From Chrysoperla carnea (taxonomy: Eukaryota > Arthropoda > Insecta > Neuroptera > Chrysopidae), in NCBI RefSeq assembly GCF_905475395.1, contig NC_058339.1:35597172-35661171 (forward strand): DNA of 64,000 nucleotides, written 5' to 3'. A program made the position numbers and the translations under genes. Within the stretch, counting starts at the first letter, position 1. Each line of letters begins with the position of its first letter. The notes under the pieces were generated by a model, which saw only the letters and a list, made by a program, of their open reading frames with translations, was not told where the DNA came from and searched no databases. Of the stretch, positions 3,391 through 8,317 are shown piece by piece.

Positions 3391-4671
3391 CTAAATTCTA
3401 CCATGTGTTTGTTTATGCTTAGTCAAATAGCCATTTGAGGAAAACATTTTATTACAAACATCGCATGAAAAAAGTTTTTCCCCAGTATGAGTTTGCTTGT
3501 GTATAACTAAATGATAATTCGAGGAAAACATTTTATTACAAACATTACAACCAAAACGTTTTTCTGTTACAGAATTTTCACCAGTATGAATTCGTTTATG
3601 TTTAGCTAAATGACTACTCGAGGGAAACATTTTATCACAAGCATCGCATGGATAAGGTTTTTCTCCGGTATGTGTTCGGTTATGAATAACTAAATCGTTT
3701 TTTTGGAAAAATGCTTTATCACAAAAATCACAAGCATAAGGTCTAATTCCTGTATGCATTCGTTTATGTCTAAATAAGTCCTTTTTATAAACAAATGCTT
3801 TATCACATTCATCACACGAAAAAGGTTTTTCTCCAGTATGAACTCGTTTATGTACACTTAAATCCTTTTTTTGAATATAAGTTTTAAAACAAATATCACA
3901 TGTATATTTTTCTCCGGTATGAACCCGTTTATGTTGAGATAAAGTTTTTTTTGTTGTGAATTCTTTATCACAAACATCACACGAAAAACTTTTATCTTCA
4001 GTGTGATTTCGTAGATGTTTCTTTAAACTACTTGGTCGAATAAATTTTTTGTTACAAATATTACAGAATAAAAATTCGTAACTTAGCTGATACTCTGTAT
4101 CACTTTCATCAAATATTTCATGTTTAATGAGGAATTCAGATTTTAACTGTTTTTCAATTTGAATATTTTCTTTTATTAATGATGAATTGTATTCTTGAAT
4201 TCCAGTATGAATTTTCTTATGTTGAATTAAGCTTCTTTTTTCAGTAAATATTATATCACAGATATCGCATGAAAACGATTTAATATGCTTTTGTTTATGT
4301 TTAACTAAGCTCCATAGTCTTGAAAATTCTGTACCACAAAAATCGCATGAAAAACGTTTGTCTTCAGTGTGACTTTGTTTATGTTTCACTAAACTGCATT
4401 GCCTAGTAAATTTTTTATCACAAATATCACATGATAAAATTGTTTTATCATTACAAATTGACTGCTGTTCTACATCACTTTCATCAAATATTTCATGTTT
4501 CGTTAAGAATTCTGCATTGCACTGTTCAAAATTTTCTCGTTCCTCTGATACATTTTTTTCAAATAATTCAGTTTTAATTACTACATTTGTAGACAACCCA
4601 TCTCCAAATTCAATTTTTCTTTCGTTTATTAACAAAGGATTATTTACATGAATAAATAAATTATTTGACAT
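3391..4671 (-). CDS. C2H2 zinc-finger protein, 11 fingers
   Basis: Probable nuclear DNA-binding protein, 426 residues in one exon. The first in-frame ATG, at 4671 (MSNNLFIHVNN), is taken as start; an upstream TTG extension to 4707 has no support and a stop (TGA) precedes it. Eleven C-x2-C...H-x3-H fingers occupy about residues 81-423. Fingers 1-3 come first, then a spacer of about 40 residues, then fingers 4-11, most joined by TGEKP-type linkers. The N-terminal part has no ZAD, BTB or THAP domain but is acidic. A KHEIFDESD motif occurs both before finger 1 and in the spacer, so the finger-plus-linker block was duplicated internally. The spacer (LIKENIQIEKQLKSEF, residues 165-180) resembles the tail of the THAP protein at 6480-7072. 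A missing 5' exon cannot be excluded. Target sequence unknown. Confidence 0.88.
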   Translation of the reverse strand: MSNNLFIHVNNPLLINERKIEFGDGLSTNVVIKTELFEKNVSEERENFEQCNAEFLTKHEIFDESDVEQQSICNDKTILSCDICDKKFTRQCSLVKHKQSHTEDKRFSCDFCGTEFSRLWSLVKHKQKHIKSFSCDICDIIFTEKRSLIQHKKIHTGIQEYNSSLIKENIQIEKQLKSEFLIKHEIFDESDTEYQLSYEFLFCNICNKKFIRPSSLKKHLRNHTEDKSFSCDVCDKEFTTKKTLSQHKRVHTGEKYTCDICFKTYIQKKDLSVHKRVHTGEKPFSCDECDKAFVYKKDLFRHKRMHTGIRPYACDFCDKAFFQKNDLVIHNRTHTGEKPYPCDACDKMFPSSSHLAKHKRIHTGENSVTEKRFGCNVCNKMFSSNYHLVIHKQTHTGEKLFSCDVCNKMFSSNGYLTKHKQTHGRI

Positions 4672-4697
4672 TTTTCTGTGTTTATTTTTAATTAATT

Positions 4698-4765
4698 TCG
4701 GCGTCAAGTAATGTCAAAGTGACGGTAATTGACGCTAGGTTATACTATTTGACGCTAATAGACCT
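4698..4765 (-). promoter_or_regulatory. Repeated TTGACGC motifs upstream of the ZNF gene
   Basis: Three occurrences of TTGACGC/GCGTCAA (near 4701, 4729 and 4750) lie within about 60 bp directly upstream of the ZNF start, in both orientations. Such spacing suggests a binding-site cluster in the proximal promoter. This is inference from motif repetition only. Confidence 0.25.
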
Positions 4766-4776
4766 TTTCATTTTAA

Positions 4777-5293
4777 TAGGGAATATTAATGTATTTTGTT
4801 TATATTTTTAATTCATTGTTTACACCGTTATAACAAAGTAAAAAATATAAATACTGCTTAAAAATGCTGTAATTAAGTGTAAAAAAATATTTTAAATACA
4901 TTATAATTTTGACATATTTAAACGCAGTTTTTTGGCGCTCTCTGTTGATGACGTATGAGTACATGATCTGTCAATTGGTGACAGTTCAATGTATAATTTA
5001 CACTTTAAAAAAAGAAATTTACAGTCGTTATTATTAAGTTTCCTAATAAAAAGCCGTACAATAGTATAATTTAATGAAATATCATATAAAATGTAAGTAA
5101 TTAATATCATACAGTATGTTAACAAATTTGACAAGCCCGTACTATGATGTCACGTCCGTATAAAAATTTGAATTTCCGTTTTGAATTAAAAAGATATTTA
5201 TTACTAAAATAATGGTTTAGTTGAAATGTCCAGTCATTAAAGTTGCGGAAGAAAAATATTTGAACCAAATTTAAATTTCATGAATATTCTCTA
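4777..5293. mobile_element. MITE-A copy 2, between ZNF and THAP genes
   Basis: A 517-bp non-coding element bounded by TAGGGAATATT and AATATTCTCTA; the inverted ends extend to TAATAGGGAATATT with one mismatch. It is highly similar to 803-1348 in SSRP1 intron 3. The internal hairpin CTGTCAATTGGTGACAG is conserved, but the CRE palindrome is mutated (TGATGTCA). It lies just upstream of the divergently oriented ZNF and THAP genes, so it may contribute promoter sequence. Confidence 0.8.
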
Positions 5294-5633
5294 TTACGCA
5301 TTTTAATTAAGATTCACTATTGTTTCGTACAGACAGTAATAAGTTGGACAAAGATACAAGATATTTGTTATTCATTTTATCACATTAGTTTTTTTACAAG
5401 CTGTCCGAGACAAAAAGTATTCACTTTTTAAAATGAAAAGGTCTATATCAAAACAATAAGATAACCTGACGGAGCAGTCACAAGCTCACAGCACGAATCC
5501 ATATAACAAGTGAAACTCGAGTGGAGAGTGTAGCAGAAAAGACGACTATCTGGGCGAGGTCGTTGCGCACTTTGTACTGCGCATAGGGCTATCTTTTGTA
5601 AACAATGTTAAAAATTGCTATTAATTTAACAAA

Positions 5634-6141
5634 ATGACGCGAGTGTGCTGTGTGGTGCAATGCGGCGTCAAATCGGGAAACCAAGAAAACCGCACGGCTT
5701 TATTTCAGATCAGTAATTCCGTAAGTGTTCAACAATTACAATACGTTTTATTAAATTTTGTCAAATTTTTTGTAAGATTTTTATGAGAATCCTTTAAATA
5801 CTTTTCGAATACTTATGAAGATCATATAAAATCAAGTGCTGTTTAGGAAGTGCTGATTAATGAAAGTTTTGGAACATACTTTCAAGAAATGTACAATATA
5901 TCAGTGACACAAATTTCTTTTACAGGATTCAGAAAGTTACAACCGGGTTTTGAATGCCGTTGGGTCCCATCTGAAACAAAGTAAATGTCCGCCAAAAAAC
6001 CTATTTATTTGCGAGTTACATTTCGCAGAAGAATGCATTCTTCGAACCGATATAAATGTTATGACAGATGGATCAGAACTGGTTGTGCCACGCAAAAGAC
6101 CGCGCTTGAAGAAAAACAGCGTTCCGACGATTTTTCCTGAT
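5634..6141 (+). CDS. THAP-domain protein (first two exons; C-terminus unresolved)
   Basis: Probable DNA-binding protein with a THAP zinc finger, a C2CH fold related to P-element transposase. Exons are 5634-5720 (29 codons) and 5926-6141 (72 codons), both phase 0, with donors GTAAGT and GTGAGT. The product begins MTRVCCVVQCGVKSG; C5/C6 and C10 with the later FICELHF supply the C-x(2-4)-C...C-x2-H ligands. The C-terminal part of the domain reads GSELVVPRKRPRLKKNSVPT, ending in the usual basic stretch plus a VPTIF motif. The tryptophan normally found mid-domain is absent (NRVLNAV instead). The next exon was not found. Without splicing at 6142 the frame stops after 6240, giving a short hydrophobic tail. 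It could be a functional short THAP protein or a decaying copy. The upstream 330 bp contain two TGCGCA motifs near 5565-5582. Confidence 0.7.
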
Positions 6142-6479
6142 GTGAGTCATATTAAAATAATAACATACATGCAAAGTGGTTCTGTAAACTTAAAATTTTT
6201 TTTAATTTGGCTATGTAACTATTTGAATGAAAATGATAACTAATTCTTTTATCTATGGATAACTGTTTCAAAAAAAAAATTTATAAGTAAGGTCACTATG
6301 GACAACTTGCTAGCTCGTGGATTTGAGTTGACAGGACCGATGTCTGCAATACTAAAGAATGCAGATTCACCTGTATTCTTTGATATTTTTTACGTGATGA
6401 TTAATAATATAAAAACAACAAACTTTTGAACGTGTTTCGAAAGTGCGTAGAAGTTTTTGAATTATTTATATATGCAATT

Positions 6480-7072
6480 ATGCCTCAACGTTGCATAATT
6501 CCGAGTTGTTTTGGAGAAAAAAAACGTTCAGTTTTTAGAGTGCCAAAGAATATTGGCAGGCGTGAAAAGTGGTTAAAAGCTGTTCGTGATGTGTATCCTA
6601 ACCTCAATGTTGGCAAAAATTTTCGTGTTTGTGAAAAGCATTTTCGAAAAACGGATTTCACGTCATATATAGCTGACGGGTCTGGAATAATTGTTCAAGA
6701 GGTATATAATGTGTTTTAAAAAAAGTCCTCAGAAATCTATTACACAAAAGAAAGAAAATTTTGTTCACTGGTATACAAAGTTTTATAACGGTCCAATATT
6801 TATAAACGTTGCAGGTGGCAGTGATAAAAAAACGACTGAAGCAAGGAGCTGTTCCTCAATTTTTAACAAATCAGGGACAAATTAAAATGGAACAAGACAT
6901 ACCTTTCGAATTAGTAATAGTGAAAGAAGAAAAGGTAGAAGAAATGGATTCAACAGAACACCAACAAACTAATATTAATAATGTTCTATTGATTAAAGAA
7001 GAAAATATAAAAATTGAACAAGAACTAGATTCAGAAGTGATAGTCAAAGAAGAAAACGTTGAGGAAACATGA
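6480..7072 (+). CDS. THAP-domain protein with Lys-Glu tail (two exons)
   Basis: A second THAP-type DNA-binding protein, 159 residues. Exons are 6480-6701 (74 codons) and 6815-7072, joined across a 113-bp GT-AG intron in phase 0. The start ATG at 6480 gives MPQRCIIPSCFG. C5 and C10, the central Trp (EKWLKAV) and FRVCEKHFRK form a complete C2CH finger. Exon 2 continues the domain with KKRLKQGAVPQF, the usual THAP end motif. The remaining ~65 residues are acidic and carry five psi-K-x-E SUMO consensus sites (K98, K111, K135, K140, K152). The tail LIKEENIKIEQELDSEV resembles the spacer of the ZNF protein at 3391-4671. The TGA at 7070 is followed within 30 bp by finger fossils, so this protein may be a truncated THAP-C2H2 fusion. 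Confidence 0.8.
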
Positions 7073-7098
7073 GGACAACTAAGATCTTTTTTTTTGTA

Positions 7099-7540
7099 GG
7101 TAATATTTGTGATAAAACATTTTCCATTGAAAAAAAGAATCTTATTTATGTGATCAGAGCCGAACCAACGAACTGATAGTTAAAGGTGTCCCGGGGCAAT
7201 CCAAGTTCGGGCCCCTATTTCTCTGTTGAGTTTGTCAACTCAATTTTGTACAATTTTTGTAAAAAAAAAAAAAAAGAAACAAGGCATGATTATTATAGAA
7301 ATAATTTAAATATTCATAAACGAACTCACAACGGAGAAAAAATCATTTTCATGTAATAATTATGATTTAAAACATGTAATAATTATGATTTAAATCCCAA
7401 AATTATTTGATTCATTTGATAAGTGGTTCATATTATGCTTGTAGGAAATAAAACATTCACAGCGTGTAAATTAATAGGCATTAAAATTATCATTTTACAG
7501 AAAAACTGAGTTCCTGCGATTTTTGTCATATAATAAATTA
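7099..7540 (+). pseudogene. Decayed C2H2 finger array behind the THAP gene
   Basis: Several broken finger pieces lie in order on the THAP strand. After a T-rich AG acceptor: GNICDKTFSIEKKNL at 7099. Then HKRTHNGEK, a finger end plus linker, at 7314-7340, followed by FSCNNYDLKH. Then NKTFTACK near 7445, and LSSCDFCH near 7506. They are separated by stops, frameshifts and inserts, and one 23-bp segment (CATGTAATAATTATGATT...) is duplicated in tandem at 7350-7395. The C-N-I-C, F-S-C-D-F-C and H-K-R-T-H-x-G-E-K wording matches the neighbouring 11-finger protein. I read this as the lost 3' part of the THAP gene or a dead ZNF copy. Confidence 0.65.
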
Positions 7541-8317
7541 TAATTCATAAAACAGCAGGACCGATTCTACTGATCTCTGATTTGTTGAATTCGCCTCCGT
7601 CCCGAATAGCAGAACAACTATAAAATAACTAATTTGGTGGAAAAGGGAGATGAAAGTTTGTATGAAAATACGTCATTTTTGAATCCACTATTCGCCTATA
7701 GAATGCTATACTGTCAGCAATTATCTCACCCTGTTTTTTGTTTTCTTTTGTAAGATGAGTTGATATGTTATACATAAAATTTTTACTACTGTAAATATAT
7801 TATATTAATTTATAAAATAAAAAGCTTTTGTTATTATTTATTTCATTACACAAATTATTTTAGAATTTATTACCTAAGCAGTATGTATTGCATACCAGTT
7901 TCAGTCCTCGGTTCAATCTCTCAGTTTCAATTCTCGCGAATCTAGAAAGGGACTATCGGAGCAACTGCCTCAGCTTAAAACTTGAGGAATATTGATAAGA
8001 GTTTTTTTTTTTAATGTGAATGATAACATTTTTATAAGCATTGGTTGATTTAAAAACTACCATTTAATACGGCTTCTGCATATACCACCATGAAAACCGT
8101 ACAAAGAATCTACAAAAAACCGTACTTGTTTATACAGAAGACGTATTAAATACGTATTAATTAACACAAAAATTTCAGATTTTTTGAAATACTTTTTTTT
8201 TTTGTTATCGAAACGCCTTAAGTTTTATACCAGATAATTTGTTATTAATAAATATATCTAAGTAAGCTTAGGCCTCTTATTGTCTTAACACCTGCTAAAC
8301 ACTGTACTTAGTGACAA
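7541..8317. other. Intergenic between finger relics and ribophorin-like gene
   Basis: No gene recognised. It holds AT-rich sequence and one small inverted-repeat unit (listed separately, 8062-8151). A T-rich stretch leads up to the ribophorin-like start codon. A GGTTCAATCTC sequence near 7912 resembles a pol III B box but stands alone. Confidence 0.4.
8062..8151. repeat. Small inverted repeat (90 bp)
   Basis: ATTTAATACGGCTTCTGCATATA on the left pairs with the complement of TATACAGAAGACGTATTAAAT on the right with two or three differences. A further inner repeat, ACCGTAC, lies between. It looks like a tiny MITE or a structured spacer. Confidence 0.5.

Follow-up and report, generated by a model that had tools for sequence, protein, structure and literature searches.

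The closest described systems are two Drosophila genes, CG6689 and CG10431, which are ZAD-ZNF genes with a THAP domain; in the available portion of that report, the authors inferred independent gains, and the paralogue CG17803 retains only a THAP-like fragment (PMC9810180). Lineage-specific THAP expansions with varied partner domains have been described in other animals, with transposase, BTB, HTH, DDE, lactate dehydrogenase and others among the partners named in the portions of those reports consulted (PMC10027918, PMC13228809). Here we analyse a 64,000-nucleotide stretch of Chrysoperla carnea DNA (the window; C3:35597172-35661171 of the 559-Mb genome, with contigs labelled C1-C5 and loci given labels of the type L001), in which a C2H2 zinc finger gene, the neighbour ZNF, is arranged head to head with two THAP genes, THAP1 and THAP2. 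We consider it probable that THAP2 is the relic of a THAP-ZNF gene fusion with decayed fingers, that the neighbour ZNF is a separate gene, and that the head-to-head layout is incidental.

Finger remains behind the THAP2 stop codon

THAP2 lies on the plus strand in two exons. Exon 1 (6480-6701) encodes the bulk of the THAP domain and is followed by GTATAT, and exon 2 (6815-7072) encodes the end of the domain, a ZNF-family acidic linker and the stop. THAP2 and THAP1 score 46.8 and 41.1 bits against the Pfam THAP model, both above its curated cut-off of 23.9 bits, and are thus THAP-domain proteins. To locate finger-like DNA, a finger model built from the neighbour ZNF's own fingers was run over the window with nhmmer. 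Directly below the 11 intact ZNF fingers it ranked two plus-strand segments behind the THAP2 stop: 7099-7164, which contains NICDKTFS (E 2.9e-4) and is also identified by alignment and reading frames, and 7297-7339 (E 4.8e-4), part of a remnant at 7297-7341 that contains NLNIHKRTHNGEK. A possible third remnant on the same strand, SCDFC at 7511-7533, is weak (E 0.17). Matches at the protein level are weaker, with domain E values of 0.076, 0.0058 and 3.4 for the three remnants. The original prediction that broken fingers lie behind the THAP stop is thus borne out for the first two and weak for SCDFC.

The first remnant has lost its first cysteine and its reading frame is broken, and a dispersed repeat (7170-7294, plus strand) found in at least 17 other places (76-86%) lies between the first and second remnants. 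THAP2 is not an open THAP-C2H2 fusion, as its frame stops at 7072 and the fingers beyond are broken; what follows its THAP domain is a linker and then finger remains, in the order of a ZNF gene. The prediction that this gene kept THAP and lost its fingers agrees with the decay of 7099-7164 and 7297-7339.

The two peptides on which the prediction was built, one in the THAP2 tail and one in the inner spacer of the neighbour ZNF, are both present where it had placed them, and their resemblance is confirmed. As proteins, tail and spacer align with a score of 62 (shuffle mean 29, reached by 0 of 1000 shuffles), and at the DNA level THAP2 exon 2 and the spacer score 37, a value reached by 0 of 500 shuffles, or by 1 of 500 with the whole ZNF. 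The tail scores 59 against the N-terminal linker of the neighbour ZNF (shuffle mean 34, reached by 1 of 1000), and the two whole proteins score 62 (shuffle mean 35, reached by 2 of 1000). The linker alignment on which the prediction hinged is significant with the inner spacer, but no DNA match of exon 2 to the N-terminal linker was found (score 20, reached by 428 of 500 shuffles). The similarity continues past the stop: the THAP2 linker plus first finger remnant is colinear with the ZNF spacer plus fourth finger at a score of 107, compared to maxima of 94 in 500 shuffles and 88 in 970 other window segments. Aligned with the N-terminal linker and first finger, the same THAP2 segment scores 90, which 5 of 500 shuffles reach. 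By a hand count on the coordinates, the LIK-to-NIC distance is 113 vs 117 nt in the two genes. As judged from these alignments, the linker and finger remains of THAP2 share a common ancestry with the linker-type C2H2 family to which the neighbour ZNF belongs.

The linker-type C2H2 family and the rank of the neighbour ZNF

The neighbour ZNF (3391-4671, minus strand) is an intact single-exon gene whose 11 fingers form one block of 3 and one of 8, with an acidic linker ahead of each. Its N-terminus, MSNNLF..VNNPLLIN, is like that of standalone ZNFs of the same genome (cf. MENNLF..VNN in L036), and it shows the full set of family features: an MxNN-type start, a linker with hydrophobic-K-x-E motifs and tandem fingers, all in one open frame. 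A protein search with this gene returned at least 249 matches from 2267 first-look candidates, of which the best 98 were scored. A genome search with THAP2, in which the best 150 of 190 candidates were scored, returned its linker in many long C2H2 frames, and the acidic linker recurs in most of the C2H2 frames fetched. The linker, taken in the original prediction for an otherwise unusual sequence, is a common trait of a very large C2H2 family in this 559-Mb genome. Over 45 linkers, which are related and not independent, 247 hydrophobic-K-x-E motifs were counted vs 30 in shuffles; four lie in the THAP2 exon 2 linker and one in the N-terminal linker of the neighbour ZNF. We take this motif to be the SUMO-acceptor consensus.

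Relatedness was ranked by aligning the THAP2 tail with 44 of 46 distinct ZNF frames that have at least three fingers, namely those in which 30 or more residues precede the first one; a match to THAP2 was the reason for fetching many of the loci, and the ranking favours them. Scores run from 160 down to 59, and the neighbour ZNF is joint last at 59, with its inner spacer at 62. Of the 22 rows that were fetched by similarity to the neighbour ZNF itself, 21 outscore it against the THAP2 linker and one equals it. The best match is L069, a 12-finger ZNF on C4 (score 160, 64 aligned columns), and the corresponding DNA match begins 8 nt before the L069 ATG.

A tree of 46 linker rows, which does not include L059 or, because of its short N-terminus, L063, agrees with this ranking; as its rows are short and some branches long, it provides moderate evidence. 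THAP2 groups with L069, L070 and L027 (90/82, unstarred). The two linkers of the neighbour ZNF group together (96/73) and fall in a different unstarred group (94/82) with L049, L028, L036, L068 and L072-074, within which L072-074 join L036 and L068 at 100/98. In approximately unbiased (AU) tests, a clade of THAP2 and the neighbour ZNF was rejected (p 0.0135; p 0.005 when both linkers of the neighbour were included), as was a single clade of all five THAP-linked linkers (p 0.0002), while a clade of the THAP2 and L070 linkers was not (p 0.29).

The finger remnants are less decisive than the linker in discriminating between ZNF sources. Against the three remnants the neighbour ZNF scores 44 (best 50), 47 (best 77) and 35 (equal to the best), and among 144 locus-strands, which include overlapping loci, it ranks 15, 53 and 3, or 37 in sum. 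The second remnant is 72-87% identical to finger arrays elsewhere among the matches listed. The other listed non-self DNA matches of 7073-7570 surround this remnant (7290-7395), and many coincide with ZNF places; the neighbour ZNF is absent from them (best 40 of 92 candidates scored).

Two further loci of the family were noted. L069 (C4:13.919 Mb) starts inside a linker unit without the usual MxNN start and could have descended from a THAP-C2H2 gene; no THAP was seen by eye in the 3.4 kb fetched upstream, where open frames of 25 residues or more were inspected. At L003/L015 (C5:34.989 Mb), a decayed ZNF with linker and fingers on the minus strand stands beside plus-strand THAP matches, again head to head.

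THAP-linker-C2H2 loci elsewhere in the genome

The genome was searched with the THAP profile, the best 150 of 246 candidates being scored; in this as in the other genome searches, counts are lower bounds and absences weak. Coordinates of 82 of the 142 THAP matches were crossed with 90 ZNF rows picked by eye from the at least 249 matches, overlapping rows being omitted; the THAP rows left out are by eye transposon-like copies, mostly matching only from profile position 27-31 onward. Besides the head-to-head genes of the window, five THAP matches have a same-strand ZNF within 11 kb downstream among these 82 by 90 rows.

Three loci at C1:131.96-132.01 Mb (L072, L073 and L074) have THAP, linker and C2H2 fingers in this order, with open gene models in L072 and L074. 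In L072, two THAP exons can be joined in frame to one exon with a linker and 17 fingers, through in-frame splice sites GTAAGT, TTTTTCTAG, GTATGT and CAAACAG; of six open joins, one uses the strong GTATGT and CAAACAG sites. When this product is scanned with Pfam, its first part matches THAP and its second part C2H2. L074 has 16 fingers and 10 open joins, with a tentative second donor. L073, with 15 fingers, is interrupted by a stop in its first THAP exon and gave no open join.

The junction of L072 is visible at the base level. Its unfused THAP relative L083 (62-68% by exon) ends 12 residues past the shared FCLNK, and the DNA match between them ends at base 2378 of L072; from base 2379 onward the sequence matches the standalone ZNF L036, which places the breakpoint between these two bases. 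The L036 match begins 18 nt before an internal ATG of L072 (19 nt before the start in L036), and a further leader sequence (TGTCATAATTTG) common to L036 and L068 is missing from L072. By this comparison, L072 reads as the capture of a ZNF, including its start codon, by a THAP gene; since unfused relatives stand on either side of its breakpoint, THAP genes appear to have captured ZNFs. L073 and L074 lack the internal start, which would be explained most simply by later deletion.

A second THAP gene, L070 (C4:68.32 Mb), has repeated linker units but lacks fingers in the stretch read; in the stretch fetched, nhmmer returned nothing better than E 0.86 behind it. The L070 THAP domain is similar to the one in L072 (62%), and the matches listed for the THAP2 domain do not include it. 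At L084 (C5:5.629 Mb), a THAP exon lies ahead of a ZNF on the same strand, a candidate fusion. At C1:1352314 and C2:9490895, THAP matches lie 5.5 and 10.7 kb before a same-strand ZNF.

Origin of THAP2

We propose that the last exon of a THAP gene took up an acidic linker and a finger array from a member of the linker-type C2H2 family. The finger part would then have decayed through loss of the first cysteine and breakage of the frame, with the dispersed repeat now lying between the remnants. What this would have left is an open frame of THAP domain and short acidic linker. The present product is predicted to be a DNA-binding protein whose linker may recruit co-regulators. By analogy, THAP2 most likely arose by the same kind of capture as L072, and its fingers would once have been translated together with the THAP domain.

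Several points count against this interpretation. The breakpoint of THAP2 itself is not visible. Among the best 150 of 190 candidates, the best-scoring other THAP match of THAP2 is only 36% identical (E 5e-5) and the most identical reaches 47% over 49 residues. L083, the unfused THAP relative of L072, looks partly decayed, with an exon 1 that differs mid-way and an exon 3 whose frame is interrupted near its start. Constraint on the THAP2 linker is weak: relative to L069 it has 18, 11 and 24 changes at codon positions 1, 2 and 3, with dN 0.33 and dS 0.57. The methionine at the start of the THAP2-L069 DNA match may be an I-to-M change within the linker repeat and not a captured start. We do not claim a captured start codon in THAP2, since the position equivalent to this M is occupied by I in the second linker unit.

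Among the alternatives, the one that survives best, though we regard it as improbable, is that the THAP-linker genes of this genome descend from one old THAP-C2H2 ancestor and that ZNFs such as L069 lost THAP. It is compatible with the THAP2 and L070 clade and with L069, which begins within a linker unit. It conflicts with the rejected clade of the five THAP-linked rows, with the presence in L072 of a ZNF leader and a start codon that the fused frame includes, and with the THAP domain of L070, which is like that of L072 and does not appear in the list of matches to the THAP2 domain. THAP2 and L070 by themselves may share an origin.

The original prediction derived both window genes from one THAP-linker-C2H2 gene duplicated in inverted orientation at this place, one copy losing THAP and the other its fingers. 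The ancestral gene it invoked is retained in part, since THAP2 looks like a remnant of one and such loci exist in the genome; the neighbour ZNF does not appear to be the other half. The linker and finger similarity of the two genes is as the duplication would require, no locus scores higher than the neighbour ZNF against the weak third remnant, and the neighbour's linkers share their group with the THAP-linked L072-074. Nevertheless, the two genes are not mutually closest relatives in either the linker ranking or the tree, where their joint clade is rejected. The neighbour ZNF has the usual standalone N-terminus, no minus-strand THAP match is listed near it (best 150 of 246 candidates scored), and we saw nothing to suggest that a THAP domain had been lost from it. 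Duplicated flanks were also sought: the ZNF upstream region scores 24 against the THAP2 region (shuffle mean 25), which is no match, and 33 against the THAP1 region, a marginal value reached by 17 of 500 shuffles. Taken together, these data make the inverted duplication very unlikely. Equally hard to credit is convergence in charged low-complexity sequence, with an unrelated ZNF pseudogene behind the THAP gene by chance: the linkers are biased sequence full of hydrophobic-K-x-E and decayed pieces of the family occur elsewhere (L003/L015), but the linker matches both the ZNF spacer and L069 at the DNA level and continues colinearly into the finger on the same strand and in the same order, with nearly equal LIK-to-NIC spacing.

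Beyond the relic origin of THAP2, it is conceivable, as a tentative extension, that THAP genes repeatedly receive linker and fingers from an expanding linker-type family, with at least two independent captures in this genome and with intact, stop-bearing and fingerless states coexisting. Since the acidic linker remains where fingers are lost (THAP2 and L070), the useful cargo may be the linker and not the fingers.

Other features of the window

THAP1, identified by Pfam, lies on the plus strand with exons at about 5634-5720 and 5928-6143, the ends being set by eye. Between it and the neighbour ZNF is a MITE-like (miniature inverted-repeat transposable element) element of about 689 bp (4758-5446, strand not assigned) with perfect 19-bp terminal inverted repeats. 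Parts of this element recur (90-96%) at about 800-1348 of the window.

Comparison with known systems

The three fused loci on C1 resemble THAP2 in having THAP exons before one large exon with linker and fingers. They differ from it in carrying another type of THAP domain, a linker that groups with L036 and L068, and 15-17 fingers that are still present. The similarity between THAP2 and its neighbour serves as a warning that resemblance between adjacent members of a very large family says little about local duplication.

In the literature searched, the coverage of which is partial, we found no description of a fusion between THAP and a linker-type family of this kind. A C2H2 array is not among the THAP partners named for other animals in the available portions of those reports (PMC10027918, PMC13228809). 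For the three ZNFs submitted to Pfam (the window ZNF, L072 and L069), no ZAD domain was listed. As far as the available text of the Drosophila report goes, CG6689 and CG10431 likewise have THAP within a C2H2 gene, so this kind of fusion is already known; in contrast, the partner family described here has acidic repeat linkers, and in THAP2 it is the fingers and not the THAP domain that have decayed (PMC9810180). What is new here is that the fingers have eroded, that the partner is of the linker type and that the L072 junction can still be read. The L072 breakpoint shows how a transposase-derived DNA-binding domain and a zinc finger array became one gene, and THAP2 shows what such a THAP-ZNF fusion may look like after its fingers have decayed.

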